DNA from: a virus
DNA: 64,000 nucleotides
Reading direction: 5' to 3' (one strand)
Virus record (IMG/VR): IMGVR_UViG_3300026544_000001
Location: 60,677-124,676 of that record
In this document: positions 6,358-64,000 of the stretch, one piece after another
Numbering within the stretch: the first letter of the stretch is position 1
Layout: the number at the start of each line of letters is the position of its first letter
Notes under the pieces: generated by a model
What the model saw: only the letters and a program-made list of their open reading frames with translations
The model's database searches: none
What the model was told of the DNA's origin: nothing
Program-made: the position numbers and the translations under genes

Positions 6358-6833
6358 TGGCTACTAAAATACAATTACGAAATGATACATCTGTTAATTG
6401 GGCAGATGTAAATCCTACCTTAGCCAGTGGAGAGCATGGGTATGAAACTGATACGGGCAAACAAAAAATAGGTGATGGTACTACTGCATGGGTTGATCTA
6501 CCGTATAAAATAGTAGGTGAAGCTAATACATTCACAGCTAGTCAAAGAGGAGCTATAACATCTTTAGCAGATGATACAGTAGCTTGGGATTTTAGAACAA
6601 CTAATAATTACAGTGTTAGTTTAACTGCTGATGCTGATATAACACTAGCTACTGATGGTGCTTTAGGTTGTACTGGTCAAGGTGGTATGTTTACTGTGAC
6701 TACAGCTGAGCACATAACTGGATGGAGTGCTGAGTTTAAATGGAAAACTGAACCAACTGACTTAAGTGGTGTTGAGAGATTTGCTTATTTTGTAGAAGCT
6801 GAAGATACAATAGCTATTGGTAGGATTCAATAA
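6357..6833 (+). CDS. Fibre-associated protein with Mtd-N/hyaluronidase-type N-terminus
   Basis: 158 residues. The first 50 or so match the N-terminal repeat found in many phage fibres and in major tropism determinants: IQLRNDT, then W..VNP.L..GEHGYETDTGK and KIGDGTTAW..LPY. The remainder is a small beta-rich domain with no clear relative. Start and stop both overlap the neighbours through TAATG, placing it in one translational unit with the giant fibre and the LamG protein. It probably caps or links fibre parts. Confidence 0.75.
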   Translation: MATKIQLRNDTSVNWADVNPTLASGEHGYETDTGKQKIGDGTTAWVDLPYKIVGEANTFTASQRGAITSLADDTVAWDFRTTNNYSVSLTADADITLATDGALGCTGQGGMFTVTTAEHITGWSAEFKWKTEPTDLSGVERFAYFVEAEDTIAIGRIQ

Positions 6834-9800
6834 TGAGTATAGTTAACGGTATGGGTGGTATGTTTGGAGGGTGTACATTTCGCCCTCAGTTAGGATGTAC
6901 AACTACAAGTATAGTAGATAATACTGATCCATTTGGTGATGGTAGTTTAATAGCTAAGTATCTATTAGATGGAGATGCTACTGATTTGTGTGGTAATTAT
7001 GATAGCGATAGTGAAAATTATAGCACCTATTTAAGTGGGGTGTATAATGATTGTATTGCATTTACTGATAAAACTGGGTATGTAAATGTTCCTAATATAG
7101 GTCCTATATGTGACTATTCAAAATCGTGGACTGTTAGTTTTGCGTGGAAATGGGATGGCGAACAGCCTAATAGTAAATATTGGTTTCTTATCCACATAAA
7201 TGATTTAGCTATAGAATGGGCTAATAATGCTAACGACGGTGAGATATATTTTGCGTTACTAAACGGTGGTACAGGTGATGTTATAGATAGACGCTTTGAT
7301 GATGATACATTATTCACTGATAACAACTGGCATCATACAGTAATAGTACATAAAGAAGGTGTAGATGATTTATTTATTACTATAGATGGTGGTGTATTAA
7401 CTGAAGAGGATGCTGGATTACACGATAATGGTACATTTTATCGTACCGATAATATGAGGATAGGTAATACCGCAGATGATGAGGATAAAGTGAGTGATAG
7501 TGGTCTCATAGATCAAGTTGAAATATACAACAGAGCATTAAATCCTCAAGAAGTACAAATGCTATATACTCAAAGTAAATACATAGCTGATCCAACACAA
7601 TCAATACCAGGTTTAGTAGCACATTACCCATTAGATGGTACAGCAGAGGATATACAAGGATATGGAGCTAATGAAAGTGGTGTGGAGTACAATGGAGTAG
7701 CATTTGTAGATGAGACTAAGTTTGGCGGTAGTAAGGTAGCTGTGTTTGATGGTAGTGATGATTATGTGAAGATCCCTATAATTGGCTTATCACCAAGTAA
7801 TTACACAATGACAGCTTGGGTAAAAACCACAGGTAGTGGTATATTTACGTCTATGTTATCTGATTCTTTTTGTTACGCTCAAGTAAATGATGATGGTTAT
7901 TTAAGATCTTATGACCTAAATGAGGAAGTTATAGGAAGCACTATAGTAAATGATGGAAAATGGCATTTCCTTACTGTTGTTAAAGATAACGGAGTGCAAT
8001 CTGTGTGGGTGGATAGTATAAAAGAAGCTGAAAAAGATAATGGAGATAATGGGGATAGTGGAGATAGAATAACATGTATAGGTTGTTATAATACTGAAAG
8101 TTCTTTTTTATCTGGTTTTATAGCAAGAGTTGGTTTTTATAATAAAGCTTTATCAGATAGTGAAATAACTGACCTATACAATCAAGAGAACGAAACAACT
8201 GATGGGTTGATTGCATATTACCCACTAGATGGTGATGCAAGTGATTATAGTACAAGTAACAATGCTGTATTGGATGGTACAATAAATGGTGATGTAAGCT
8301 TTGCTAATGATGATGACTATGGAGATAGTGTAGCATCATTTGATGGTGATGGGGATTATGTTAGTACTCAAATAGTACCTGCAGGAGGAGATAAAACATT
8401 ATCGTGTTGGTTCAATATGAATGGAACTTCTGATACTCAAGGATTGATATCGTTTCCTACAACTGCTAACGAGTATCAAGGAACATCATTAATAATTGAT
8501 GGGGATAAATTAGAGGTTAGTGGTAGAAATGGAGATGGTGCTTTTAAGTCAACTTCAGTTGATTTTACTACCACAAATGAATGGCATCATGCAGTTGGTG
8601 TATTGTCAGGTGCAGTATTAACACTATACTTAGATGGTGAGGATGTTGCTACACTAGATATGACTGATGTATCTGATGATAAAGATGGGGTTGTTATAGG
8701 GTGTGTAAATGGAGATTCTGTAAGTTATTATACAAACGGCTCAATAGCCAATGTCCAAATATTCAACAGAGCATTAACAAGTGATGAAGTTAATAAACTA
8801 TATAATAAAGAAACAATAACATCAGGATTAATAGCTCATTATCCATTAGCTGAAGATGCAACTAATAAAGCAGGATATTATGGAACTGAGAATGGTGGAT
8901 TGATCTATAGTGAACAATATGGTGATAGTGTTGGAAGCTTTGATGGTGTTGATGACTATATAGAGACTACTGAAATGTCATTAGCTTCAGAGTTCACTGT
9001 TACTGGTTGGGTTAAGGTTATTGACTTAGATAGTGATGAAGACGTGGTTATCGCTATAAATTGGAATGCAGATGCAAGTACGAGATTTGGTATAAAGAGT
9101 GATTCTGACGACGATACATCATTATCTATACAATGTGGTGATGATGATGCTTGGCATAGTATACCTGGTGCTATTGATAATACTTGGATGTTTATATCAG
9201 TTACGTATGATGGTACTGATACAGTATCAAAAGTATATGGCGAAACTGAAGTTGCATTTACTACGAATGTAACATTAGATAATAGTAAAGTGTGTATAGG
9301 TAATTTCAATTCTGATTCTAGTGGATATTTCAATGGAAATGTAGCCAATGTTAGAATATACGACAAAGCACTAACAGCAGAACAAATAACAGACTTATAC
9401 AATAAGAAAGATGTAACTGATGGATTAGTAGCTCACTATCCATTGACTAAAGAATGGAGAGCTAGTGATAGATGGGTTGCATATAATGGTACTGAAGTTA
9501 GTAATGTTTATGAAGAAGACTCTATTAGTGTAGTGTCTAAATTTCCATCAGATGTAAATTCAAGAATAGCGCTTAATCAAAAATTCAATAAAACATATAC
9601 TTATGGGTTTTGGATTAAAATGCCAACAGATGATACTACTTTTGTACCTTTGTCTGTATATGAAGGTGATGATGCTAGAGGGTATTTCAACTTAAATAGA
9701 GATGATGAACAAGGTTCAATTATAACTGCTTATAATGATGGTAGTTGGACCATATCAGATAAACTTACAGGTGCATATACCGATATAAAAGAATGGACTT

Positions 9801-10663
9801 ATCTAGTATTTGTGTGTAAAACAGATAATGTAGATGTATATGCAGATGGAATATATACAGGTAATATAACATCATTACCTATTGAAGAAAGGGATTTATA
9901 TATAATGGGTGGTGGCCCTAGTAATGATAGTTCTGATGATGATGTTTATATCAAAAATGTACGAATCTACAACAGAGCTTTAACAGAAGATGAAATATCT
10001 ACTATATACAACTACGAGAAAGTAACTAGAAATATAGTAGTAGATAGAGGATTGGTAGCTTATTATCCGCTAAAAGATAACAGTAATGATCATTGGGTTA
10101 ATCAGTTAGATGGAACTGATAATGGTGATGTAAGTTATGATGGAGTTAGTGCTAGTTTTGATGGAGATGGTGATTATATAAAACTCCCTAATATCACACA
10201 GGATACCAGTAGAAGTATGTGCTGTTGGTTAAAAACTGTAGATACTAATACCCATTATTTTATAACAAATAAAGATAACTCAAGCACTAGTGATGATATA
10301 GGAGAGTCTATACAGATGTCTGGAGATAATTTAGTTGCTAGTGCTAGATGGGCTGTTCAAGGAGAATCTGCTACTATTGATTCAGGTATCTCACCAGCAT
10401 CAGATATTTGGTATTTTGCTTGTGTGGTTGTAGACGCTGATGCTTCAACAATGACATTTTATGTTGGTGATACTTATTCAGATACTGCGGATGTAACTTT
10501 TAAAGCTACAGATGAAGACAAATGTATGATAGGTGCTATAGATGACAGTGGTGCTACAGGTTTCGCTAACGGAAAGATATCAAACGTACGTATTTACAAT
10601 AGAGTACTAAGTCCAGAAGAAATTACAACAATATACAATACAGAAAAGGGAGAATTTGAATAA
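6833..10663 (+). CDS. Adhesin with six tandem LamG/concanavalin-like domains
   Basis: 1276 residues. Six repeats of about 200 residues begin near residues 38, 260, 458, 665, 863 and 1073. Each opens with GL-I/V-A-H/Y-YPLDG-like sequence and closes with a motif such as IYNRALT..EI..LYN. This is the signature of LamG-like (concanavalin fold) jelly-roll domains used for carbohydrate or protein binding. No catalytic glycosidase motif is visible. It lies between the Mtd-N-like protein and a DUF4376-like protein with TAATG overlaps on both sides. The likely role is a multivalent receptor-binding or decoration protein. Confidence 0.85.
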   Translation: MSIVNGMGGMFGGCTFRPQLGCTTTSIVDNTDPFGDGSLIAKYLLDGDATDLCGNYDSDSENYSTYLSGVYNDCIAFTDKTGYVNVPNIGPICDYSKSWTVSFAWKWDGEQPNSKYWFLIHINDLAIEWANNANDGEIYFALLNGGTGDVIDRRFDDDTLFTDNNWHHTVIVHKEGVDDLFITIDGGVLTEEDAGLHDNGTFYRTDNMRIGNTADDEDKVSDSGLIDQVEIYNRALNPQEVQMLYTQSKYIADPTQSIPGLVAHYPLDGTAEDIQGYGANESGVEYNGVAFVDETKFGGSKVAVFDGSDDYVKIPIIGLSPSNYTMTAWVKTTGSGIFTSMLSDSFCYAQVNDDGYLRSYDLNEEVIGSTIVNDGKWHFLTVVKDNGVQSVWVDSIKEAEKDNGDNGDSGDRITCIGCYNTESSFLSGFIARVGFYNKALSDSEITDLYNQENETTDGLIAYYPLDGDASDYSTSNNAVLDGTINGDVSFANDDDYGDSVASFDGDGDYVSTQIVPAGGDKTLSCWFNMNGTSDTQGLISFPTTANEYQGTSLIIDGDKLEVSGRNGDGAFKSTSVDFTTTNEWHHAVGVLSGAVLTLYLDGEDVATLDMTDVSDDKDGVVIGCVNGDSVSYYTNGSIANVQIFNRALTSDEVNKLYNKETITSGLIAHYPLAEDATNKAGYYGTENGGLIYSEQYGDSVGSFDGVDDYIETTEMSLASEFTVTGWVKVIDLDSDEDVVIAINWNADASTRFGIKSDSDDDTSLSIQCGDDDAWHSIPGAIDNTWMFISVTYDGTDTVSKVYGETEVAFTTNVTLDNSKVCIGNFNSDSSGYFNGNVANVRIYDKALTAEQITDLYNKKDVTDGLVAHYPLTKEWRASDRWVAYNGTEVSNVYEEDSISVVSKFPSDVNSRIALNQKFNKTYTYGFWIKMPTDDTTFVPLSVYEGDDARGYFNLNRDDEQGSIITAYNDGSWTISDKLTGAYTDIKEWTYLVFVCKTDNVDVYADGIYTGNITSLPIEERDLYIMGGGPSNDSSDDDVYIKNVRIYNRALTEDEISTIYNYEKVTRNIVVDRGLVAYYPLKDNSNDHWVNQLDGTDNGDVSYDGVSASFDGDGDYIKLPNITQDTSRSMCCWLKTVDTNTHYFITNKDNSSTSDDIGESIQMSGDNLVASARWAVQGESATIDSGISPASDIWYFACVVVDADASTMTFYVGDTYSDTADVTFKATDEDKCMIGAIDDSGATGFANGKISNVRIYNRVLSPEEITTIYNTEKGEFE

Positions 10664-27686: not shown

Positions 27687-28871
27687 ATGTTAATACATAA
27701 GATAATAATAATTATAGCATTCACAATTGTTATGACGCTTGTGGAGCAAGTAGTTAATAACATGTATAAACTACTTAATTCACAGAAGTACTACTATTTA
27801 CAATACAATAAAGGTAAAGAGATAACTAGGAGAGAGTGTGTAAAACTATTTAACTGTAAATATGTTATTAAGATAGATAGCTATAAATTTGTAAAAAAGA
27901 CTTTTGATAAAGGTTATGTTATATCTAAAGAAGAGGTTATTCCTACATGGAAAGCAATACTTGATAATAAAGTATACATAGATCTAAATACAATGATGGT
28001 TGGTGTTAGAGCTGGTAAGGATAGAATAATTTTTAAAAACATATTTATCATTACAGGTAATAATATAAGAACAATTATGGTTAGTAGCCCTATATATGTG
28101 TTGTTTATACTCTATATGGTTATTGTACTTAATGATGGAAAAAGAAAACATGATATAATTAAAAATAGAATGAATGAGTACAGTGTTGAGTTAAGAGGTA
28201 TTATAATGTTTAGTGAAAATCTTAATCATGAAGTTAACAATGCATTAAGTGTAATAAATAATAAAGCTCGACTTGCATTGGAAAAAGTTAATAGAACATG
28301 TATGGGTAAAGAGATAATAAACAATGATTTTGAATATATATTTGATGCATGTGATCAGATAGAAACTATAACAAAGAAGTTACAAGGTATAAAACACTTT
28401 AAGCATAATAGCGATCATAGAACATTATATGAGGTTATACAAAAATCATTTGATTTCGCTACACTAGGTTCACCTAATGTAAAAACTACTATAGATGAAA
28501 AACTACTTAGTTATGAAGCTAAAGGTATTAGTAATATTGACCTTCATGGTAGATTACTAAACCATATAAAGAATAGTATAGAGGCTAAAGCTAGTGAAAT
28601 AAAAATAGTACTAGGTAAACTAAAAGGGGATACTATCGGGTTATATATTATAGATAATGGTAATGGTGTACCTGCAGAAGTTAGGAATACTTTATTTGAT
28701 GAAAATGTAAGTAGTAAGAAAGATAAAAACTATGTAGGTGGTAATGGTATGTATATTAACAAACACATAATGAAAGCCTATGGAGGGGATATACGTCTTG
28801 TTAGTAGTATACCTGGTAAAACCGTATTTGAATTATCATTTAAATACAGAAAGATATCAAGCAAAAATTAA
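27687..28871 (+). CDS. Membrane sensor histidine kinase
   Basis: 394 residues. Membrane helices at about 5-22 and 130-148 enclose a roughly 105-residue extracytoplasmic domain. The dimerisation/phosphoacceptor helix has NLNHEVNNALSVI (H181, with E182). The ATPase domain has LLNHIKNSIEAKA (N box), IIDNGNGVP (G1, D323) and VGGNGMYINKHIMKAYGG (G2). All boxes needed for activity are present. The ribosome site is weak and the start lies 12 bases after the sensor stop, so expression may depend on reinitiation. The natural partner is the receiver protein at 26401. Confidence 0.88.
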   Translation: MLIHKIIIIIAFTIVMTLVEQVVNNMYKLLNSQKYYYLQYNKGKEITRRECVKLFNCKYVIKIDSYKFVKKTFDKGYVISKEEVIPTWKAILDNKVYIDLNTMMVGVRAGKDRIIFKNIFIITGNNIRTIMVSSPIYVLFILYMVIVLNDGKRKHDIIKNRMNEYSVELRGIIMFSENLNHEVNNALSVINNKARLALEKVNRTCMGKEIINNDFEYIFDACDQIETITKKLQGIKHFKHNSDHRTLYEVIQKSFDFATLGSPNVKTTIDEKLLSYEAKGISNIDLHGRLLNHIKNSIEAKASEIKIVLGKLKGDTIGLYIIDNGNGVPAEVRNTLFDENVSSKKDKNYVGGNGMYINKHIMKAYGGDIRLVSSIPGKTVFELSFKYRKISSKN

Positions 28872-40762: not shown

Positions 40763-42964
40763 ATGGCATTCGAAAAAGAAATAATAGATGGTGAACAATG
40801 TCGACTTACTAAATGGAAAAAAGAACCCAGCTTCAAAGACTTGTATGCTGACTATGATGAAGCTAGTAGTGATCAGGATAAGCAGGTAGAGAAGATACTA
40901 CAGTATAGAGTAGATATGGAAGGTGGTAAGCCACTACCTAAATCTATTCGTGACAGAGGTAAATCTACACAAAGACCATTAGTTATTCGTAAAGCTGCTG
41001 AATGGGCTTACCCTATTCTGGAAGAACCCTTTCTAAGTACTAGTAATATGTTTGTAGTTAATCCTAGAGGTAAGGATGATGAACAGAAGGCTAAGTTATC
41101 AAGCATATGGTTAAACTGGGTAATGAATACTAAGATAAGAAAGACTGATTTTATTGCTGAAATGGTAAGGACATTATACGATGAAGGTACTGTGTTAGTT
41201 AAAGATGGTTGGTTAGCTGAGTATGATGAAATAGAAGTTGAGTACATGGAACCTGTATATGCAAGCCCTGAAGAAAGTTACCAGATTATACAACAAAAAG
41301 TGCAAGTAGGTGAAATGAGTCAAGAAGAAGCTCAAGCTATGTTAGAAGCAGGGCAACCTGTACAGGTAGGGGAAGTTAAAAGAGTACGAATAGAAAATAA
41401 GCTGGTAGAGAATCATCCTATAGTGGAAGTAATAGATAATACTAATATAACAGTTGATCCATTATGTGATGGTGACATAGATAAAGCTAGATTCATTATA
41501 CATGAATACGAGACTGACTATGCTACACTTAAAGACCAGGAGTACGATGCAGAAACCGGTACAGGTATTTACAAGAATATAGATAATGTAGAGATTGGTG
41601 AAGGGGATGCTGATGAAGTGTATGAGTATAGAGATAATGTACCAACATTTGCATTCAAAGATAAACCTCGTAAGAAAGTTAAAGCTTGCGAATACTGGGG
41701 TTATTGGGACATACATGGTGATGGTACACTAACTGCTATAGTTGCTACTTGGATAGGTAAAACACTAGTTAGATTGGAAGAGAATCCATTTCCACATGGT
41801 GAGTTACCCTTTAGTGTAGCTACATATATGCCAAGAACTAAAGAGTTCTGGGGACAACCTGATGCTGAACTACTTAGAGAAAACCAAGAGACAATAGGTG
41901 TATACACTAGAGCTATGCAAGATCAAACTATAACTAATAGCTTAGGACAACAAATAGTTGATGAGACCTTATTTACTAGAGAGAGTCAATGGCAAGCATT
42001 CAATAAAGGGTTAAACGCTAGATCAAGAGCAGGAGCAAGTCCTGATTCAATGATATACAAAAGTAAAATACAGCCAATAGATAAATCAGCATTTGATATG
42101 TTAACATTACAAAGACAAGATGCTGAATCATTAAGTGGTCAAAAGTCCTTCGATAATGGTATATCAGGAAGTTCGTTAGGTAGTAGTGTAGGAGGAATAA
42201 AGACTGCTGATAATGCTATGACTAAACGTAAGCTAAGTGTACTAAGAAGGATTAGTGATAGCTTATTAGGTAGAATGGCTAGGCATATGTTAGCTAATGC
42301 TCAAGAGTTTGCTGAAGAAGAAATGATACTTAGATTAACTGATGGCGAATTCGTTAATGTGATGAAGCAAGATATCCAAATGGAATACGATCTTAAGGTA
42401 GAGATTAATACGCCCGAAAAAGAAGAAGCTATAAGTAATAAGATAGCATTTATGTTACAAACTACTATGCAGTCTATGCCATTTGACTTTACTAAAGTTA
42501 TGCTGAAAAGATGGGCCAGAGTCAATAAAATGCCAGATGTTGAAAAAGATATAGATGAGATACAACCTCCTGGACCTACTCCAGAAGAACAACAGATGCA
42601 ACAAATGCAGATGGAGAAGATGAGACTAGATCTAGAAACAGCCCAAATGCAAAATGAAAAGATAAAAGCTGAGATAATGAAACTATACAGTGATAAAGAT
42701 AGAAACGATGCACATACATATGAAGCTATGCATAGGATGGACTTAAATAGTGAGAAGTTACAAAGTGAGGCTCGATTAAAAGCTGCGCAGGCAGATAAGA
42801 TAGAAAGCGAAACAGATATGTTGGATGCTGAGTTTATAGATCATCAAACTGGTAGTAAGAGGCAAAGAGAAGTAGAAGATCAAGAGTACAAAGCTAATGT
42901 GGACTTGATGAAACAACAACTAAATAAAAAAGGAATGAACGATGGAAGAACAACAAGTAAGTAA
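40763..42964 (+). CDS. Portal protein
   Basis: 733 residues. It has the order of a podovirus portal: a charged N-terminal clip/wing region (RPLVIRKAAEWAYPILEEPF, FLSTSNMFVVNP), a stem with long helices around 360-460 (LLRENQETIGVYTRAMQDQT), and a C-terminal Gln/Met-rich coiled-coil barrel (about 600-733). Twelve copies would form the DNA channel and head-tail connector. Two shorter genes and the scaffold follow, then the capsid gene, as expected. Similarity to the N4/phiEco32-type portals is my impression and not a measured match. Confidence 0.85.
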   Translation: MAFEKEIIDGEQCRLTKWKKEPSFKDLYADYDEASSDQDKQVEKILQYRVDMEGGKPLPKSIRDRGKSTQRPLVIRKAAEWAYPILEEPFLSTSNMFVVNPRGKDDEQKAKLSSIWLNWVMNTKIRKTDFIAEMVRTLYDEGTVLVKDGWLAEYDEIEVEYMEPVYASPEESYQIIQQKVQVGEMSQEEAQAMLEAGQPVQVGEVKRVRIENKLVENHPIVEVIDNTNITVDPLCDGDIDKARFIIHEYETDYATLKDQEYDAETGTGIYKNIDNVEIGEGDADEVYEYRDNVPTFAFKDKPRKKVKACEYWGYWDIHGDGTLTAIVATWIGKTLVRLEENPFPHGELPFSVATYMPRTKEFWGQPDAELLRENQETIGVYTRAMQDQTITNSLGQQIVDETLFTRESQWQAFNKGLNARSRAGASPDSMIYKSKIQPIDKSAFDMLTLQRQDAESLSGQKSFDNGISGSSLGSSVGGIKTADNAMTKRKLSVLRRISDSLLGRMARHMLANAQEFAEEEMILRLTDGEFVNVMKQDIQMEYDLKVEINTPEKEEAISNKIAFMLQTTMQSMPFDFTKVMLKRWARVNKMPDVEKDIDEIQPPGPTPEEQQMQQMQMEKMRLDLETAQMQNEKIKAEIMKLYSDKDRNDAHTYEAMHRMDLNSEKLQSEARLKAAQADKIESETDMLDAEFIDHQTGSKRQREVEDQEYKANVDLMKQQLNKKGMNDGRTTSK

Positions 42965-45307: not shown

Positions 45308-46705
45308 ATGAGTAATCAAACAACAATGTTCAATCAAGGTGGAATAACTTCAAGTACAATAGACAGACAGTTTACACCAGAGTTCGTAAGTAAAGCAATA
45401 GTGGAAATGCCTGCTAGACAGACAGTATTCTTAGATAGAGGTAATAGAGATAATCAACCAGATAACCATGGTGATACATTTACTATGGAAGTTAGATTTC
45501 CTGTACTTAATAAAGGTAATATGATAGATGGCGGTATTGATGCATTAGGTGCATTATATTTAGGTAATGAATGGTACTCAATCAATGCTGATGGTTCATT
45601 AAAGAATACGTTTAGAGCCGATAGCTATATGGTTAATGGTGAAAAAACATATGAAGAAGCTGTAGCTGCTGCTAAGGCTGATGCAGAAGCGGATAAACCT
45701 GCTGACGGTAAAATTGCTTCTGGTGCTGGTTCTATTAGAAATGGACAAAATTCATTATTAGTTGATAAAGGTGGAATTACTCCAATCCCTGAAACTGGTG
45801 GTCAAATGAATGAAGTTAATGGTTCGAGTAAAATGGTATCTGCTAAGGTTGATACATTTGGTATGAATACTAAATATACAGTTAAAGGTACTAAATTAGA
45901 TTCTAGACCAAGACTAATTGGCAGAGCTATTGAAGATTTAGGTAGAGCTAGAAAAGAAGCTCAAGAAGGCCAAGCTAGAGCAAGTGTTATTGCTGCTGCT
46001 GAATTAAATAGAATGTGTGCGTCTGCTGATGGTGTATGTCCAGCTGAGCTAGACGGTTACGATACATTAAACTATGAAGTATTTGAAGCTTGGGAGCAAG
46101 ATTTACAAAATGCAGAAATCCCATTACAAACTATGATAGTTAGTGGTTCAACTAAAATTGATACTAAAATTATTGATGGGGCATATATAGTTTATATTAA
46201 TAAAGAGCTGGTACCTACATTAAGAAAGATCAAAGGACCAGATGGTACTACAATTTGGACACCAGTATCTAAGTACACAGAAAGAAGCGGAACTAAAGAA
46301 TGGAATGGACTTCATGGTGAGGTTGGTGCATTAGATGGTTTACCGTTTAGATTCGTTGTAGTTCAAGACATGCCAGTTCTTAAGGGGCAAGGTGAAGAAG
46401 TTGGTGGTGATAATGATGCTGCTAAAGATGATGATGCTGTTAAAGCTAGAGCGTACAAAACACTTAATGCTGCTGGAGATAAAGCATACTATGATATATT
46501 CCAACTAATAGTTGTTGGTGATGATTGTTATACTACATTATCATATAACTGGGGTAACGTTCAAGCTGAACATGTTAAACCTCAAAGAGATTTAGTTAAT
46601 GATATCTATAAAACTAGAGGAGCTATTGTTACTCAATGGAGTTATGGCTTCTTAGCATATAGACCAGAAAGACTAAGAGCACTTGCTTGTAGTTGTGGTA
46701 GATAG
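45308..46705 (+). CDS. Major capsid protein (N4-gp56-like)
   Basis: 465 residues. The N-terminus has SSTIDRQFTPEFVSKAIVEM and PARQTVFLDRG; the middle DTFGMNTKYTVKGTK followed by helices LIGRAIEDLGRARKEAQEG; the end YYDIFQLIVVGDDCYTTLSY and then TRGAIVTQWSYGFLAYRPER. This order matches the N4-gp56 family of HK97-fold capsid proteins. An insertion around residues 70-160 may be surface-exposed. The ribosome site is AAGGAAATAAG. The gene ends TAG-TAA and is followed by two strong hairpins, as expected of the most abundant protein. Confidence 0.85.
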   Translation: MSNQTTMFNQGGITSSTIDRQFTPEFVSKAIVEMPARQTVFLDRGNRDNQPDNHGDTFTMEVRFPVLNKGNMIDGGIDALGALYLGNEWYSINADGSLKNTFRADSYMVNGEKTYEEAVAAAKADAEADKPADGKIASGAGSIRNGQNSLLVDKGGITPIPETGGQMNEVNGSSKMVSAKVDTFGMNTKYTVKGTKLDSRPRLIGRAIEDLGRARKEAQEGQARASVIAAAELNRMCASADGVCPAELDGYDTLNYEVFEAWEQDLQNAEIPLQTMIVSGSTKIDTKIIDGAYIVYINKELVPTLRKIKGPDGTTIWTPVSKYTERSGTKEWNGLHGEVGALDGLPFRFVVVQDMPVLKGQGEEVGGDNDAAKDDDAVKARAYKTLNAAGDKAYYDIFQLIVVGDDCYTTLSYNWGNVQAEHVKPQRDLVNDIYKTRGAIVTQWSYGFLAYRPERLRALACSCGR

Positions 46706-48042: not shown

Positions 48043-49722
48043 ATGAGTGCACAATTAGAGGGTATAACTGAATTAAAGATAGATGGTACTGGTTCATTTG
48101 ATAAGTTAATGAGTGCTGTGTATCTACACATAGAACAAGCACTTAACAGTAGTCAAATTACTCAAGAACAAGCTGGTGCTATATACACTAATGTAATACC
48201 TTCTATAGTGCATGAATCTGTAAACTTTGAAATGCAGAAAGATGTACTTAATGAACAATTAGTGCAAGAAAAAGCTAAAACTCAATTATTGTACTCTGAT
48301 CTTGAAGTTAAAGATGCTGAGTTAAAACAATTAGGAATTACTATAGATAATAGTGTAAAAGACGGTAAACTCAAAGACAAGCAGATTGTAGAGGCGGATA
48401 AACAGATTGAACAACTAGAAGCTGCTACTAAGATATCTTTAGATAAATTTGAGTTGGATAGAGATACAACACTTACTGATATTAAACTTAAAGAAAAAGA
48501 TTTAGAACTTAAAGCTAAACAAGTTACTCAAGCGGATAAACAGATTGAACAACTAGTTATTGACACTGAACTTAAGCAAAATAAATTTGAACTAGATAGG
48601 GACATTGCATTAAAAGATGTAGACCTTAAACAAGAAGAAATAGATATGTCTAAAAGTCAATTAGTTATCCAAGAAGCTAAAGAGTCAAGAGATAAATTAA
48701 TGTTCGCTAAAGAATTACTTATTAAAGAAAGTGATGTATCTATTGAAGAAACTAAAGTAGCCAGAGAAAACACCATGGCACTTAGCGATAAGAAGAAATT
48801 AGAATCAGAAGAGATACAGCAAGAAATGCTTAAAGAGCAGTTAGTGGAGTTGCAAGAGAAGAATGGAGTTATAGATTACATACCTATATTCTATAGTAAG
48901 TATATAAACTATAATAAAGAAACTAAATTAGTTGCTCCTACACTAGTAGATGGTACTGATGGCTCAAGCATTAATGATTACACCTATTCTGACAGTATTA
49001 CAGTAGAACCTGTATTTCAAGTATACTTAGATGGGATAAATGAGTGGAACATGCTTACTACAGATATGCCTACTAACATTGATACATTAGCTAGGTATAT
49101 ATCATTTCGTAATGGTGGTAATGCCATACATACTAATGTGTTATTACGTAATAACCCATCTGCACTAGGTGATGTATTTGCTATAAAAGATGATACAGAT
49201 AGCTGGATGATAGTTCCATATATAAATGATGAAACAGCTAAACCTACAGCAATATTAAGTCCTACAGCAAGTACTGCTTTAAAGGACTTAAGATATTTTG
49301 ACCCTAACGATACTAGTACAGTACGAACTATTGGGGATTCAGGTGATGACAATAAAGGGTGGTTAAGTTTGTTAGACGAGTTTGCTGACAACGGTATAGC
49401 CCACATAGTAACATTCATAAGAGATGTCTCTACATGGGAACTAGATAACCCTAATAATAGAGTTATTACTGTATTAAGTGAGAATGGTTATAATGGTACT
49501 GGAGATAATCCAGATAATAAACCTAATAGTTTACAGCATATAACTTACCCATTAACTAAGGATGAAACTAATATTTATAAAACAATAAAATCTACATTTA
49601 CTGAAGATTCTGATTCAATAAATAATAGTTTAATATCATTGCAAAAGCAAGAAGTAATACAGAAAATGGAATTAGCTGATAGGCAGAGTAATGTAGCAGT
49701 ATTACCTACAACATTTAAATAA
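48043..49722 (+). CDS. Coiled-coil virion protein with C-terminal beta domain
   Basis: 559 residues. Residues about 60-270 are a continuous coiled coil with a repeated AKQVTQADKQIEQL-type element (two close copies). From about 280 a beta-rich domain follows (SITVEPVFQVYLDGINEW). The domain order recalls the shorter protein at 58334, which also has a helical N-terminus with KAKEL-like runs. Probably a neck, tail or internal protein. Confidence 0.55.
   Translation: MSAQLEGITELKIDGTGSFDKLMSAVYLHIEQALNSSQITQEQAGAIYTNVIPSIVHESVNFEMQKDVLNEQLVQEKAKTQLLYSDLEVKDAELKQLGITIDNSVKDGKLKDKQIVEADKQIEQLEAATKISLDKFELDRDTTLTDIKLKEKDLELKAKQVTQADKQIEQLVIDTELKQNKFELDRDIALKDVDLKQEEIDMSKSQLVIQEAKESRDKLMFAKELLIKESDVSIEETKVARENTMALSDKKKLESEEIQQEMLKEQLVELQEKNGVIDYIPIFYSKYINYNKETKLVAPTLVDGTDGSSINDYTYSDSITVEPVFQVYLDGINEWNMLTTDMPTNIDTLARYISFRNGGNAIHTNVLLRNNPSALGDVFAIKDDTDSWMIVPYINDETAKPTAILSPTASTALKDLRYFDPNDTSTVRTIGDSGDDNKGWLSLLDEFADNGIAHIVTFIRDVSTWELDNPNNRVITVLSENGYNGTGDNPDNKPNSLQHITYPLTKDETNIYKTIKSTFTEDSDSINNSLISLQKQEVIQKMELADRQSNVAVLPTTFK

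Positions 49723-54746: not shown

Positions 54747-54747
<1 letters not shown>
50170..54747 (+). CDS. Giant tail tip / central fibre protein
   Basis: 1525 residues. It contains several GDMWYKTDTNELFIY-type modules (W-x-x-T..L-x-I-Y), a WVPT..I/Y repeat, and a block identical in DNA to the fibre at 12209 (residue about 463). The last 200 residues resemble J-like tail-tip ends: FRANTFKLQS-like strands (VIRANTFKLQSSDGNDPI), a paired LDSKIDTNVN coiled coil, then AVIDGGRISANQLVIGGELV. It probably forms the tail tip that holds fibres and contacts the surface first. Confidence 0.7.
51559..51616 (+). repeat. 58-bp exact repeat, copy 2 (other copy at 14711)
   Basis: Identical to 14711-14768 and in the same frame. 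Flanks differ in DNA but encode related sequence, marking a shared module between the tail-tip and fibre genes. Confidence 0.9.
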
Positions 54748-55160
<413 letters not shown>

Positions 55161-56315: not shown

Positions 56316-56543
56316 ATGTATAAATTAGTTATAAATAAAGTTATAAAGAAAAATAATGGGTCTATGGTTTATACCTATACCTTACATACTAGATACCCTA
56401 AGTTAAATGAGGATATTATAATCAGCACTAAAGACAGTATACACTTAAATACCTCATATCCTTTATCTGCGGATGAGCTACTGCTGAAAGTACTTGAAAG
56501 GACAGGAAAATTAGATGAATATAATAATACCCTCAGATATTAA
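56316..56543 (+). CDS. Small hypothetical protein upstream of the ACP/KS block
   Basis: 75 residues, beta strands followed by a helix (SADELLLKVLERTGKL). It overlaps the next gene by 29 bases in another frame, so the two are coupled. Function unknown. Confidence 0.5.
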   Translation: MYKLVINKVIKKNNGSMVYTYTLHTRYPKLNEDIIISTKDSIHLNTSYPLSADELLLKVLERTGKLDEYNNTLRY

Positions 56544-57189
56544 TAGACTATCTCCTTTATTTCTTATATGGTTATACATAGTATCTAATAGATCTATGAA
56601 CCTACTTGACAGGAAGAAGATAATAGAAAGTATACACAGTAACTCTAAAGTTGTTTTGAGTGTGTATGGAGGGTTACTTCGAATAGCAAGTTCATCATAC
56701 AATCCTAGTTTTGCGAGTGCTGCAGATAAATTACTGCATAATTCATTAAATGTTAAATCTATAAAATCTATAAAATCTACTAACAACTTTACTCATGAGT
56801 ATGATTCGGTATTGTACACAGCACTAACTACTGGGACTGATTTCAGCCTTGCGTCTGTTATCTCAAACTTATACGCTTATAATAAAAAATACTCTGTCAT
56901 TGACAGTGATATACGTTTAGTAATGTATAAAATATACTATACTACTATACTTCATAAGGAAAATAGTATACCTAAATTTATTAAGTTATTGGAAACAGTA
57001 GCTATTCTTTCATTTTGTTCTAAGCCAACATCAGGTATGCTATATGTGGATGAAATATATGAAAATCAAGTAGTAATTGGGATTGTTACGGATAAGCCCA
57101 CAACTGGTCTTACTCCGTTAGGTTTCAAGAAAATAAGTAACAAAGCACTGGTATTAGCAGAACTTAGAAAAAGGCATAATAATGAATGA
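56515..57189 (+). CDS. Unknown protein coupled to the ACP gene
   Basis: 224 residues, largely helical, with AGGA seven bases before the ATG. Its end overlaps the ACP-like gene by 8 bases, so it is translated with it. It has no motif I recognise: no acyltransferase HxxxD, no PPTase signature, no thioesterase serine motif. It may be a tail protein or an undescribed partner of the ACP/ketosynthase pair. Confidence 0.5.
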   Translation: MNIIIPSDINRLSPLFLIWLYIVSNRSMNLLDRKKIIESIHSNSKVVLSVYGGLLRIASSSYNPSFASAADKLLHNSLNVKSIKSIKSTNNFTHEYDSVLYTALTTGTDFSLASVISNLYAYNKKYSVIDSDIRLVMYKIYYTTILHKENSIPKFIKLLETVAILSFCSKPTSGMLYVDEIYENQVVIGIVTDKPTTGLTPLGFKKISNKALVLAELRKRHNNE

Positions 57190-57412
57190 AAAATATAAAT
57201 TTATATGTGATATTGTAAATGCAAATGGAGGATGTGTTCATGACGTTAATGAACTTTTAATAAAAACAGGAATTGATAGTTTTGCAGTACTTACTGTACT
57301 ATTAGAAGTAGATGATGAGTTTAGTATATTAAAAGACATTGATTTTGATAAAATAGACTATACAGCGTTGAGTATACATAATATCGCCAATGGAGATATA
57401 AAATGTATATAG
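57182..57412 (+). CDS. Acyl-carrier-protein-like protein
   Basis: 76 residues, the normal ACP size. GIDSF (30-34) gives S33 as the candidate 4'-phosphopantetheine attachment site, followed by helix II FAVLTVLLEVDDEFSI, matching the DSLxxVEL...EEEF pattern of ACPs. The helix I and helix III/IV regions (KFICDIVN; YTALSIHNIANGD) fit the four-helix layout. It overlaps both neighbours. AAGG lies seven bases upstream. It would need a host phosphopantetheinyl transferase. By sequence alone it is weaker than the ketosynthase call, but the pairing supports it strongly. Confidence 0.75.
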   Translation: MNEKYKFICDIVNANGGCVHDVNELLIKTGIDSFAVLTVLLEVDDEFSILKDIDFDKIDYTALSIHNIANGDIKCI

Positions 57413-58332
57413 CTGATTATACTTATACCGTAGGTGACTATACTTCTAAAGATAGTATAGTGTTTTCTACAGAGCTCCGAGAAAATAATAAAGGTTATAA
57501 TAATTGTAGTAAATATTTTAAACAGTTTTGTGTTTCAAATACTTTGTTATTAGCTAACAGTAAAACTTATATTTTATACATATCCGGTCCTTCATTATCC
57601 TCTACATTTTCTACCATTACAGACTTAAGTCGATTTACTTTTAAAGATAGTACAACAACCAACTACTTAAATGGGTATACTGGACCTCTTATACGTACTT
57701 TGTCATGTAGTATGTTGCATATGTATGAAAAACAACTTATAACAACTGTACCTACTTGCAAAGTAATTGGTAAAGAAACTATAGACTTTGCATGTGCATC
57801 TGGTGGCTATGCTATAGCTCGAGCTGAAGAATTACTAGATACAAAAAATATCGAACAAGTAATAATAGTAGGAGAAGAGATTATTACATTCAATACATAC
57901 GCATTATTTAAAGAAAACAATATTGATTTACTGCTAGGAGACGGGTTTGCCGCAGCTATACTAAATAATACACCTTCTGATTACCAAATAAGTAATTTTA
58001 TAAAGTACAATTCTTATAATATAAACCCATTTCATGTAGATTGTGAAGGGTATTCTAAAGTATATACTGGAGTGTGTAATTATGTGAAATTGCATGGTAC
58101 AGGAACTAATACCAATACCATAGCAGAGGCCGAAATTATTCAAAATAGTAACATACCTATCTATTATAAATATAAAATAGGTCATACCCAAGGTTTAAGT
58201 GCATTTGTAGAAACATTAATGCTACTTAATGATACCAGTATAAGAAATAATTCAACTATTGAGGTACTTGCTAGTGGTTTTGGGGGATACTATATAGGAT
58301 ATACAGTAAGTAAAAACAAAAAGGATAAATAA
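57403..58332 (+). CDS. Beta-ketoacyl-ACP synthase (ketosynthase), compact
   Basis: 309 residues, against about 410 for FabF. IDFACASGGYAIARAEELL places the nucleophile at C131. VKLHGTGTNTNTIAEAEII supplies H231. YYKYKIGHTQGLSAFVETL supplies K256 and H261, with the same five-residue spacing as K335/H340 in FabF. GDGFAAAIL and ASGFGGYYIGYT correspond to the GEGA and GFGGTN motifs. The Cys-His-His-Lys set is therefore intact and a decarboxylating Claisen condensation is expected. The first 100 residues are shortened and diverged. It starts within the end of the ACP gene and ends one base before the tail gene at 58334, so it belongs to the virion operon. The substrate and product are unknown. Confidence 0.9.
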   Translation: MYIADYTYTVGDYTSKDSIVFSTELRENNKGYNNCSKYFKQFCVSNTLLLANSKTYILYISGPSLSSTFSTITDLSRFTFKDSTTTNYLNGYTGPLIRTLSCSMLHMYEKQLITTVPTCKVIGKETIDFACASGGYAIARAEELLDTKNIEQVIIVGEEIITFNTYALFKENNIDLLLGDGFAAAILNNTPSDYQISNFIKYNSYNINPFHVDCEGYSKVYTGVCNYVKLHGTGTNTNTIAEAEIIQNSNIPIYYKYKIGHTQGLSAFVETLMLLNDTSIRNNSTIEVLASGFGGYYIGYTVSKNKKDK

Positions 58333-58333
58333 A

Positions 58334-59242
58334 ATGAGTGATGAAGTAATAAGTAATTTAGCAATAAAAACATTAGAAGTAGATAGCAGTGAGTTAATTA
58401 TATTAACTAATGATTTAGTTGAAAATAGTATAGGTGAATCAGGTGGTTTTAATGCTGCTAAAAGATTATTGAAAGAAGAGTTAGATAATTTAGATAGTAC
58501 TAAAATGGACGATGTACAAAAAGCAGGGGTATTTGCGGGATTTGTAAAAGATGTATATTTAGATATTAATAAGCAAGCAATGCAAATGGCATTTAATATA
58601 TTAAAGACTAATGAAGAGTTAACATTATCTAAATATAAAACTGAAGTTGATTATGATAAAATGAGAGCTGATATAGCTATGCTACAAGAACAAAAAGAAG
58701 GTATTGTAAAAGATAACCTACTTAAAGAAAAAGAGTTATTAGTATCTGATGAGAAAGTTGCTATAGCCAGATATGATAAACTAGATAAGATAGCTAAGTT
58801 GAAAAAACAAATGGGAGTAGAGCCTACTACATACACAACCAGAACTATTACAAATGGCAGTTACTATTCTATCTATAATGGAGCTAGTTATATTACTGAT
58901 GGTGGAGGTAACTTCTTAGATAGTGATGGAAATGCTACAGAAGATCCAGAGCAATACGTTAGAGTGGTATTTGATTCTGTAGATGTTGTTAGTGATGTTG
59001 TAGGAAATACAAGTACACCTGGTGCAATAGATAAACAAATAGTTGGTTACGATCAAGTTAATAGAAAAGATTTGATTAAAACTGTTAATGAAGTTAGGGG
59101 ACTGCTAGTTAATGCACAAGCTGAACATATTCCTACATGGATGAATACAACAGTTAAAGAGTTAATAAAAACAGTAGCTAAAGATGATGCTAATGTTATA
59201 GCAGCAGTAAATTCTAGTACAGCGGATGATGATTTACAGTAA
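58334..59242 (+). CDS. Coiled-coil virion protein
   Basis: 302 residues. Helical N-terminal domain (SELIILTNDLVENSIGESGG), coiled coil (YDKMRADIAMLQEQKEGIVK), then a beta/helical C-terminal half. It resembles a neck or tail component. AAAAGGATAAATAAA lies upstream, and the 3' end overlaps the next gene by one base. Confidence 0.55.
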   Translation: MSDEVISNLAIKTLEVDSSELIILTNDLVENSIGESGGFNAAKRLLKEELDNLDSTKMDDVQKAGVFAGFVKDVYLDINKQAMQMAFNILKTNEELTLSKYKTEVDYDKMRADIAMLQEQKEGIVKDNLLKEKELLVSDEKVAIARYDKLDKIAKLKKQMGVEPTTYTTRTITNGSYYSIYNGASYITDGGGNFLDSDGNATEDPEQYVRVVFDSVDVVSDVVGNTSTPGAIDKQIVGYDQVNRKDLIKTVNEVRGLLVNAQAEHIPTWMNTTVKELIKTVAKDDANVIAAVNSSTADDDLQ

Positions 59243-59868
59243 TGCGTATATTAGTTAGAGCTACTGATTACAAGTTTAGTAAAACATTCTTCAGAAATGT
59301 GTATGATGGTATTACTAATGATTCTATTAGTAATGGTAGATTATTTCATATGATGAAGTCTGTACACTATGCTAAAGTACCTAAGTCGGTACAACAGAAT
59401 ATAGTAAGTTATACTACATATGTAAATGATGAGGGTAATAGTACTAGCACTCCTGTATATGGGCCTACATTTGAAATATCTGGCGGAGCTGACTTTACGA
59501 ACTATATAAAAACACATATAAATAATAATGAACCTGAATGTAAATGGAGTTTCATTTGTACTATGAGTAAGGAGAGTGGGTTAATTAGTCAAGAAGAGCT
59601 GGATATGTTGATAGACTTTAAGATGAGAAAGATACTAGTTGATAGAGAAGGTAAACGTATAGTAGCTGAGTATAAGAAATTTGGATTATCGGTAGAGCAG
59701 AAAATCAGAAATGATATAAGTCATAGAAAAGTACATCAATATATGTATGATACTTGGTTACGAGATATAGTAGAATTAGTTAAAAATGACTGCAGTAGAA
59801 ATGAGTTCTTAGTTAAATACTATGCTATGGTTAATTGGTTGAAACGTAGGTACAACTATGCTGAGTAG
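59242..59868 (+). CDS. Hypothetical structural protein
   Basis: 208 residues. A mixed N-terminal half is followed by a helical C-terminal half with many basic residues (RKVHQYMYDTWLRDIVELVK). It overlaps the next gene by 11 bases. Its place among tail/internal genes suggests a virion or assembly role. Confidence 0.55.
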   Translation: MRILVRATDYKFSKTFFRNVYDGITNDSISNGRLFHMMKSVHYAKVPKSVQQNIVSYTTYVNDEGNSTSTPVYGPTFEISGGADFTNYIKTHINNNEPECKWSFICTMSKESGLISQEELDMLIDFKMRKILVDREGKRIVAEYKKFGLSVEQKIRNDISHRKVHQYMYDTWLRDIVELVKNDCSRNEFLVKYYAMVNWLKRRYNYAE

Positions 59869-60550: not shown

Positions 60551-61411
60551 ATGACTGGAGGAACAAATAATTCATTAGCTACATATTCTGTAGATGAGGA
60601 TACTTTTGATCTATATGATGAAGTATTTAAGTTTAAAGATAGTTTATCCTCTATTGAATTTGGTGGATTACTAGATTGTTATAAAGTGTTTTTTGCAGTT
60701 GAAGATACAGAGAAAAATAGAAAAGAGCTAGATAGGATATTCACTGGAGATGGCATATCATGGAAAGATAAATTTAACTTACTAGAAGGTGAGCATAAGA
60801 CTTCAGATGGTACTACAATAGTTAATAAGTATTACATAAAGTATGAATACGGTAAAAAACTTAATAGTGCTCAAGCTAAGTTTTTAGCGTCTAATTTAGA
60901 TGTGTACTCTGACAGTCATTCTACTTCCTGTTGGAAACGTACATTAGAACAAATTGCTGTTATGGCTATTGCAGTGTATACTGGAAATCCTTGGGTAATG
61001 GCTTCTGCATTTATAAGCTCAGCTTATTACTTTTCTGGCAGACCTATGCCTAAAGATCTCGCTATAGCTTTAGCAGTTATTACGTTAGGTGAAGGAGTAG
61101 CAAACTCAGGTTGGACAGTAGCAAATGTAGCCAGTGTTGCAAACTTAGGCATTGGTTATGTTAATAATCAAAAAAGTATTCAAGAGCTGCAAAAAATACA
61201 TGAAGTACAGAGAAAAACAAAAGAAAATAGAGAATCCTATTATGAGGCTAAAGAATTTGAAAGTCATTTAAGATATATATATGAAGATAGCTTTAATACC
61301 TGTTGGAGAGGTAACTTAGAAAAGAGCCCATATTACGATATACAGATGTTATATTCAGACTACGCATCATACCCTTGGGTTACTACTAATATATGGGATC
61401 AGGATGAATAA
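60551..61411 (+). CDS. Virion protein with hydrophobic central region
   Basis: 286 residues. Residues about 135-200 are hydrophobic and Gly/Ala-rich (IAVMAIAVYTGNPWVMASAF, LAIALAVITLGEGVANSGW), flanked by charged helical ends. This is the make-up of podovirus internal proteins that insert into the host membrane on DNA entry. Inferred from composition and position only. Confidence 0.55.
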   Translation: MTGGTNNSLATYSVDEDTFDLYDEVFKFKDSLSSIEFGGLLDCYKVFFAVEDTEKNRKELDRIFTGDGISWKDKFNLLEGEHKTSDGTTIVNKYYIKYEYGKKLNSAQAKFLASNLDVYSDSHSTSCWKRTLEQIAVMAIAVYTGNPWVMASAFISSAYYFSGRPMPKDLAIALAVITLGEGVANSGWTVANVASVANLGIGYVNNQKSIQELQKIHEVQRKTKENRESYYEAKEFESHLRYIYEDSFNTCWRGNLEKSPYYDIQMLYSDYASYPWVTTNIWDQDE

Positions 61412-63661: not shown

Positions 63662-64000
63662 ATGGGATTAATGGAATACTACGAGAATGATCCGTTCTCA
63701 CAACAATTAGACTACGCACCTGAAGAAGATGACTTACTTACTAAAAAGAAAAAGAAGTTATTAGATAAAGTTAAAGAAAAATCAGCAAGATTGCATACAA
63801 TAAAAGATAATAACGTACTTACTAAATTAAATGGTAATGACTTCTATGATGCAGATAGTACATATTCAAAGGGCATAGGTACTAAGTCTACTACAAGATT
63901 AGGAGACCCTGAAGACTCAACTGCTTCATATGTCAACGCTCCAGAAGCCCCTAATACAATAAGACACAAGTTCCATAGAGAGCCTACAGCCGATGAGTTA
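63662..64000 (+). CDS. N-terminal part of a further, probably large, virion protein (partial)
   Basis: 113 residues open to the window edge, starting at ATG 63662 behind AAGGATACTATAG. Lys-rich beginning (LLTKKKKKLLDKVKEKSARL). TTRLGDPEDS...VNAPEA loosely recalls the RL..IDAPE strand of thermonuclease-like domains, but the preceding DGDT motif is not clear. Probably an internal virion or ejected protein. Confidence 0.55.
   Translation, partial: MGLMEYYENDPFSQQLDYAPEEDDLLTKKKKKLLDKVKEKSARLHTIKDNNVLTKLNGNDFYDADSTYSKGIGTKSTTRLGDPEDSTASYVNAPEAPNTIRHKFHREPTADEL

Follow-up and report, generated by a model that had tools for sequence, protein, structure and literature searches.

Why a large bacterial virus should carry, in the midst of its virion genes, a predicted acyl carrier protein (ACP) together with a predicted beta-ketoacyl-ACP synthase (ketosynthase, KS) is the question raised by this locus. 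The answer proposed here is that the pair would serve as a dedicated acyl supply for the acylation of an ejected virion protein. Catalysis, chain length, transfer and target are all inferred, and the proposal is considered to have an even chance of being correct.

The ACP and KS genes and their surroundings

The window, by which is meant the whole stretch of 64,000 nucleotides analysed, represents the final 64 kb of a 124,676-bp IMG/VR record. Its portal, major capsid (MCP) and gp54-like proteins were assigned to phage families (PHROG-type profiles), and with a portal, an MCP and a giant virion RNA polymerase all present, the contig is, as judged from sequence, an N4-like (Schitoviridae-related) large bacterial virus. 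The N4-type virion RNA polymerase was found as a 2153-aa ORF at the opposite contig end. As the two contig ends share approximately 128 bp (window positions 63873-64000 correspond to the contig start, L001 9-136) and the polymerase gene runs in an open frame across the join, the contig was taken to be circular in assembly, and the record is probably a full-length phage genome of ~124.5 kb. The features of interest are as follows.

40763..42964, + strand: portal protein, ~35% identity to Schitoviridae portals
45308..46705, + strand: major capsid protein (phrog_1357)
48043..49722, + strand: virion structural protein, N4 gp54-like (phrog_2050)
56515..57189, + strand: 224-aa gene, function unassigned, directly upstream of the ACP gene and overlapping it
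57182..57412, + strand: predicted ACP, 76 aa, GIDSF; PDB profile matches are carrier proteins, D32-S33 kept
57278-57280, + strand: codon of the predicted phosphopantetheine serine S33; D32-S33 invariant in 118 sequences
57403..58332, + strand: predicted short, thiolase-fold beta-ketoacyl-ACP synthase, 309 aa (Pfam, NCBIfam, PDB profile, AF2, tree)
57793..57795, + strand: codon of the KS nucleophile Cys131; C in 123/123 alignable sequences
58093..58095, + strand: codon of KS His231 (HGTGT); 125/125
58168..58170, + strand: codon of KS Lys256; 125/125
58183..58185, + strand: codon of KS His261 (GHTQG); 125/125
58334..59242, + strand: 302-aa gene, function unassigned, directly downstream of the KS gene
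59242..59868, + strand: 208-aa gene, best gp53-family match in the window, non-significant (E=0.015)
63662..64000, + strand: first part of the virion RNA polymerase ORF (phrog_2206, E=6.9e-68), the remainder lying at the opposite end of the circular contig

The ACP and KS genes precede the polymerase gene by ~5.3 kb, in the same orientation, within the block that encodes virion proteins gp55-gp51 in N4-like phages. A preliminary description of this DNA had placed them in a tail operon; the location among virion genes was upheld, while the tail label proved imprecise, the block being that between MCP and virion RNA polymerase, for which "ejection/virion-protein operon" is more exact. A search of the contig yielded no match to an SDR reductase, PPTase, malonyl transferase (AT), second ACP or Pfam acetyltransferase, in agreement with the earlier remark that no reductase was nearby, and the contig consequently did not show the accompanying reductase, malonyl transferase or FAS genes by which an auxiliary FAS-II operon (fabG-acpP-fabF) would be recognised. 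Elsewhere in the window, a 1276-aa protein with six concanavalin-A-like/laminin-G repeats (6833-10663) is probably a receptor-binding virion protein, a 394-aa protein contains a histidine-kinase-type ATPase domain (27687-28871), and a 137-aa protein encoded among the virion genes (54747-55160) has a run of about 12 threonines near its N-terminus. No relatives of positions 60551-61411 were found in IMG/VR.

The reading frames of the preliminary description (57182-57412, 76 aa, with GIDSF and S33, overlapping 57403-58332, 309 aa) were reproduced exactly, the overlap between the two genes amounting to 10 nt. The comparison with KS families that it had suggested was positive: the window KS matched Pfam ACP_syn_III (PF08545) with E=2.2e-7 and 31.1 bits (cut-off 24 bits) and several NCBIfam KS families (best E=2.6e-6). 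When the window KS was combined with nine relatives in a profile, ketosynthases and other thiolase-superfamily chains were recovered from the PDB (best E=3e-9). Structure models were built from input alignments containing only the window and IMG/VR loci; the AlphaFold2 (AF2) model of the KS reached a pTM of 0.79 and a mean pLDDT of 73, with its weakest part at residues 64-99, and a fold search of the PDB yielded 1009 matches at E<=1e-3. Among the matches listed, the top hits were KS/thiolase-fold enzymes with a probability of 1.00. A fold that was not thiolase-like would have spoken against the earlier assignment, and no such refuting observation was made for the KS. The full ketosynthase set that had been claimed (C131/H231/K256/H261) is present in the sequence and invariant across the relatives. 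By sequence and model, the product of 57403-58332 is a thiolase-fold KS with an intact catalytic set, from which condensation activity is inferred.

The viral KS has the thiolase fold, the Cys/His/His/Lys set and the HGTGT and GHT motifs in common with the FabF/FabH ketosynthases. Unlike these, it is reduced in its N-terminal region, and in the tree the viral KS group stands apart from canonical FabF and PKS sequences. A PF00109 scan of the contig gave no match, so that a full-length FabF-type N-terminal domain could not be assigned, and the KS of a P22-like relative covered this profile at positions 114-247 only. The shortened N-terminus had previously been regarded as odd; the KS is indeed short, but not unusually so, as members of the viral family typically measure 275-376 aa.

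The ACP was less readily recognised. As a single sequence it missed Pfam PF00550 and every single-family model, whereas profiles of the window ACP and its relatives matched carrier proteins in the PDB, the best being NodF (E=1.7e-5), with mitochondrial complex I chains also among the matches. The HMM comparison suggested for this protein was thus met by the relatives' profile and not by the single sequence. The protein is small and acidic, and the Asp-Ser pair was found in 118/118 sequences. The product of 57182-57412 is, on this evidence, an acyl carrier protein, its phosphopantetheinylation at S33 being inferred.

Distribution of the ACP-KS pair

With the window KS alone as query, a search of IMG/VR returned no match. 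The family was opened by a weak match (E=0.2) between the window KS and the spring-derived P22-like phage MW202545.1, in which an ACP (DIDSLD) and then a KS are encoded between a tail/stabilisation gene and ejection-type genes. With the MW202545.1 KS as query, 51 IMG/VR loci were obtained; at least 469 related KS loci were found with an alignment that included the window, and an N4-type alignment gave 18 further loci. As inferred from these searches, the ACP-KS pairing is present in hundreds of uncultured viruses. The loci are phylogenetically correlated, and locus counts therefore overstate independence. Of the 124 loci in which the KS is complete, 117 have the ACP gene directly upstream of it, as do all 15 of the further N4-type loci examined; among the seven exceptions, five have the KS gene at, or close to, the end of the contig, and in one (L123) the ACP was one gene away. 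Although the window proteins are only ~20-35% identical to their relatives, the catalytic Cys/His/Lys/His and the ACP Asp-Ser are invariant.

The pair is carried by N4-like and P22-like podoviruses and by a third lineage (L068/L157), and lies in the virion block in all three. The tree places the window KS inside an N4-type group (99/94), which in turn joins L068 and L069 (100/100). The P22-type KS sequences form a separate group (97/98); several branches are long, and a common origin of both groups remains unresolved. Variations in arrangement were also seen. In the N4-like contigs L123 (913-4881) and L129 the KS gene adjoins the portal gene, the L123 ACP being located one gene upstream. In the third lineage (L068 9472-17062 and L157 9796-17769) the portal gene is downstream and a peptidase-like gene upstream, and the ACP and KS genes are followed by a ~100-aa gene in place of one of ~160 aa.

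When 84,980 bacterial and archaeal species genomes were searched, with a P22-like and not an N4-type KS as query, only seven loci were found. One of these, L138, turned out to be a phage contig in a Balneolaceae bin. Two others, L139 (1027-3886) and L140 (2-6135), are clusters in Campylobacterota MAGs that encode the same short-type KS with an MBL-fold hydrolase and FabG, and L139 additionally has an ACP and PKS-type genes; by sequence, their KS is predicted to be a bacterial relative of the viral one. As the KS family is near-absent from cellular genomes, at least as judged with this P22-like query, the gene does not qualify as a recent acquisition from a cellular host.

The third and fourth genes of the cassette

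In the relatives, the usual order is ACP, KS, a ~150-aa gene and a membrane-active virion protein. For the P22-like third gene (~150 aa), sequence comparison with Pfam, PHROG and the PDB was negative. Its AF2 model (pLDDT 94, element order a-a-b-b-b-a-b-a-b-b) returned 62 matches in a PDB fold search (E<=1e-3), and all among the matches listed have the GNAT fold. Going by this model, the product looks like a GNAT-fold acyltransferase; acyl-ACP-dependent transfer is inferred. The earlier observation that no acyltransferase was nearby is thus true of the window, but does not extend to the P22-like relatives, in which a GNAT-fold gene follows the KS. By position, the P22-like third gene corresponds to P22 gene 14, lying between the genes for the tail needle and those for ejection. 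P22 gene 14 (phrog_651, head morphogenesis; L165 612-1067) is likewise ~150 aa and located just before ejection genes 7-20-16, whereas in P22 itself neither an ACP nor a KS separates gene 26 from gene 14. P22 gp14 was rejected as a third-gene homologue, the position agreeing but no sequence match to the third-gene profiles being found.

For the N4-type third gene (~160 aa), neither a Pfam nor a PDB match was obtained, and the N4-type and P22-like third genes did not match each other by profile; both results count against the acylation of a virion protein. That the N4-type gene encodes a GNAT is inferred only from its size, position and the look of its sequence. In the window, the third-gene profiles gave no convincing member, and neither an acyltransferase nor an acylated substrate was identified, which also weighs against the proposal. 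The 224-aa gene at 56515-57189 was considered as a family member and discarded, its match to the first profile being non-significant (E=0.042) and absent with a larger profile.

In N4-like relatives the gp54-like gene (phrog_2050) is directly upstream of the ACP, and the KS and third gene are followed by a fourth gene of ~700-930 aa that is homologous to N4 gp53. In the P22-like loci, the third gene is followed by a large protein whose N-terminal helices are amphipathic and rich in Val/Ala (MSAVVEAVGDVV...). Of 49 non-redundant fourth genes, 38 encode Ser or Gly as the second residue, compared with 13.8% of 383 control genes; 19 of the 49 have a strongly hydrophobic N-terminal region, compared with 4.4% of controls. 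The N4-like phages phi50-12, JSF3 and pVa5 have the same gene order around the insertion (gp54-gp53-gp52-vRNAP) as the cassette loci, except that gp53 directly follows gp54, without ACP, KS or third gene. An N-terminal segment of ~46 residues is present in 16 of 18 cassette-linked gp53 proteins and absent in all four cassette-free Schitoviridae gp53 proteins; the two N4-type cassette loci without it (L069 and L162) count against the acylation of gp53. As Met-Gly is likewise found at or close to the beginning of at least three of the four gp53 proteins without a cassette, Ser/Gly at residue 2 was ruled out as a cassette-specific acylation signal, and more weight was therefore placed on the N-terminal segment. 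With the gp53 profile, the window gave only the non-significant match at 59242-59868.

Part of the cassette is also found in cultured Alteromonas phages. In R22Y (L164, PP212876.1, 6791-11501), gp54-like, ACP, third gene and gp53 follow in this order, and in PT11-V19 (L166, 1423-5777) the ACP, third gene and gp53 homologue are arranged in the same way; neither has a KS. The KS is therefore not obligatory, a further point against the proposal. ACP, third gene and gp53 seem to form the core in this lineage, with the KS either added elsewhere or lost in R22Y and PT11-V19; its addition would, by inference, shape the acyl chain.

Proposed mechanism and alternatives

In the proposed mechanism, a viral acylation cassette sits inserted in the virion-protein operon. 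A host PPTase would convert the phage ACP to holo-ACP, host FAS-II would load it with an acyl or malonyl group, and the phage KS would extend or select the chain, with reduction possibly completed by host FabG/FabZ/FabI. The GNAT-like N-acyltransferase encoded by the third gene of most relatives would then use this dedicated acyl-ACP on a virion protein, most likely the downstream membrane-active one (N4 gp53-like, or its amphipathic P22-like equivalent). Once ejected through the envelope, the acylated protein would insert into the membrane with the aid of its acyl chain during genome entry. In the window phage, transferase and target may be too divergent to identify, or their roles may be filled by host or other phage proteins. 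That they cannot be recognised there is the main weakness of the proposal for this phage. The preliminary description had listed a specialised acyl chain made with host enzymes and the acylation of a virion protein among its hypotheses; a combination of the two is favoured because of the conserved gene order of the relatives and the location among ejected virion proteins, without biochemical proof. The more general claim that short-tailed phages of several lineages use their own ACP, KS and GNAT to lipidate ejected, membrane-inserting virion proteins is advanced tentatively, as one that may well be right but falls somewhat short of an even chance.

It was also possible that ACP and KS act as auxiliary metabolic genes, boosting or redirecting host fatty-acid synthesis late in infection and so altering membrane fluidity or envelope lipids. 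This is the published reading for acpP of R22Y and of roseobacter prophages (PMC11705849, PMC8224337), and it accords with the intact catalytic residues and with KS and ACP being FAS-II components. However, the contig has no other FAS genes of the types searched, the cassette holds a fixed place among virion genes in unrelated phages, where a gene resembling a GNAT and one for a membrane-active virion protein come next, and the near-absence of the KS family from cellular genomes, as judged with the P22-like query, indicates that it is not a recent host gene. The alteration of host lipids, as had been suggested earlier, is less favoured because of the first two of these points; it is regarded as unlikely, though it cannot be dismissed. 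The GNAT neighbours, together with the absence of a detectable reductase, would also suit a KS that is mainly a malonyl-ACP decarboxylase or acetoacetyl former, with acetyl- or beta-ketoacyl-ACP supplied to a GNAT that acetylates virion proteins at the N-terminus without any lipidation. Ser and Gly as second residues are common N-acetylation sites, and the viral KS proteins, at 275-309 aa, are small. Against this, the nucleophile Cys is kept, which suggests condensation, the hydrophobic N-terminal region of the downstream protein fits a long chain better, and acetyl-CoA is already on hand; such a role is thought improbable.

Alternatively, the acyl product might be a lipid or small molecule destined for the virion or for taking over the host, in which case the substrate of the GNAT would be a small molecule and not a protein. 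Precedent exists in NodF/NodE/NodA and in bacterial clusters that join ACP/KS to an N-acyltransferase or FabG for specialised lipids, and the Campylobacterota relatives L139 and L140 lie in clusters of this kind (FabG; ACP and PKS-type genes). No sugar- or polyketide-building genes were noticed beside the viral modules, however, and their constant neighbour is a membrane-active virion protein, so that this possibility was judged quite improbable. Finally, ACP and KS could act without catalysis, as structural or chaperone proteins in virion assembly, given that ACPs are structural elsewhere (as in the mitochondrial complex I chains) and that the genes lie within those for morphogenesis. The invariance of four catalytic residues and of the Asp-Ser across very divergent sequences makes this the least credible of the alternatives, and it is given very little weight.

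Two known systems offer analogies. NodE is a dedicated KS and NodA a separate N-acyltransferase. The NodF-NodE pair (with NodA) thus shares with the viral pair a dedicated ACP and KS placed atop the host FAS and a separate N-acyltransferase, although the similarity of the ACP to NodF is the sole likeness seen by sequence. Nod factors are lipo-chitooligosaccharides, whereas the viral pair lies among virion genes, has a shorter KS and has no sugar-building genes noticed beside it. In Salmonella, acylation of the SipB translocon depends on IacP (PMC5279801). As described in the available part of that report, a dedicated ACP is likewise encoded with a membrane-perforating delivery protein whose acylation promotes insertion; on the other hand, no dedicated KS or GNAT is reported there, acylation is cysteine-dependent, and the process is bacterial secretion and not phage ejection (PMC5279801). 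The cassette may work like NodF/NodE/NodA or IacP-SipB, by analogy only; membership in neither system was demonstrated.

Phage ACPs and prophage fabG-acpP-fabF clusters have already been reported (PMC8224337, PMC5463345, PMC11705849). Among these, the R22Y ACP (gp30) was published as an auxiliary metabolic gene for host lipid metabolism (PMC11705849), and Rhodobacteraceae prophage ACPs were annotated as auxiliary metabolic genes (PMC8224337). Gene gp30 and the cassette ACP represent the same gene in the same location, with the KS absent from R22Y. The host-lipid interpretation is given in both reports, and the conserved virion neighbours are not discussed in those parts of them that were available (PMC11705849, PMC8224337). 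No published virion-embedded ACP-KS(-GNAT) cassette was found in the open-access literature, and virus-specific protein lipidation in genome delivery is undescribed in the literature searched.

It is still poorly understood how short-tailed phages get DNA and protein channels through the envelope. R22Y and PT11-V19 provide a cultured laboratory system in which the role of the cassette can be tested. If the proposal is true, lipidation would join the genome-delivery process, and phage ACPs filed as metabolic helpers would need reinterpretation.
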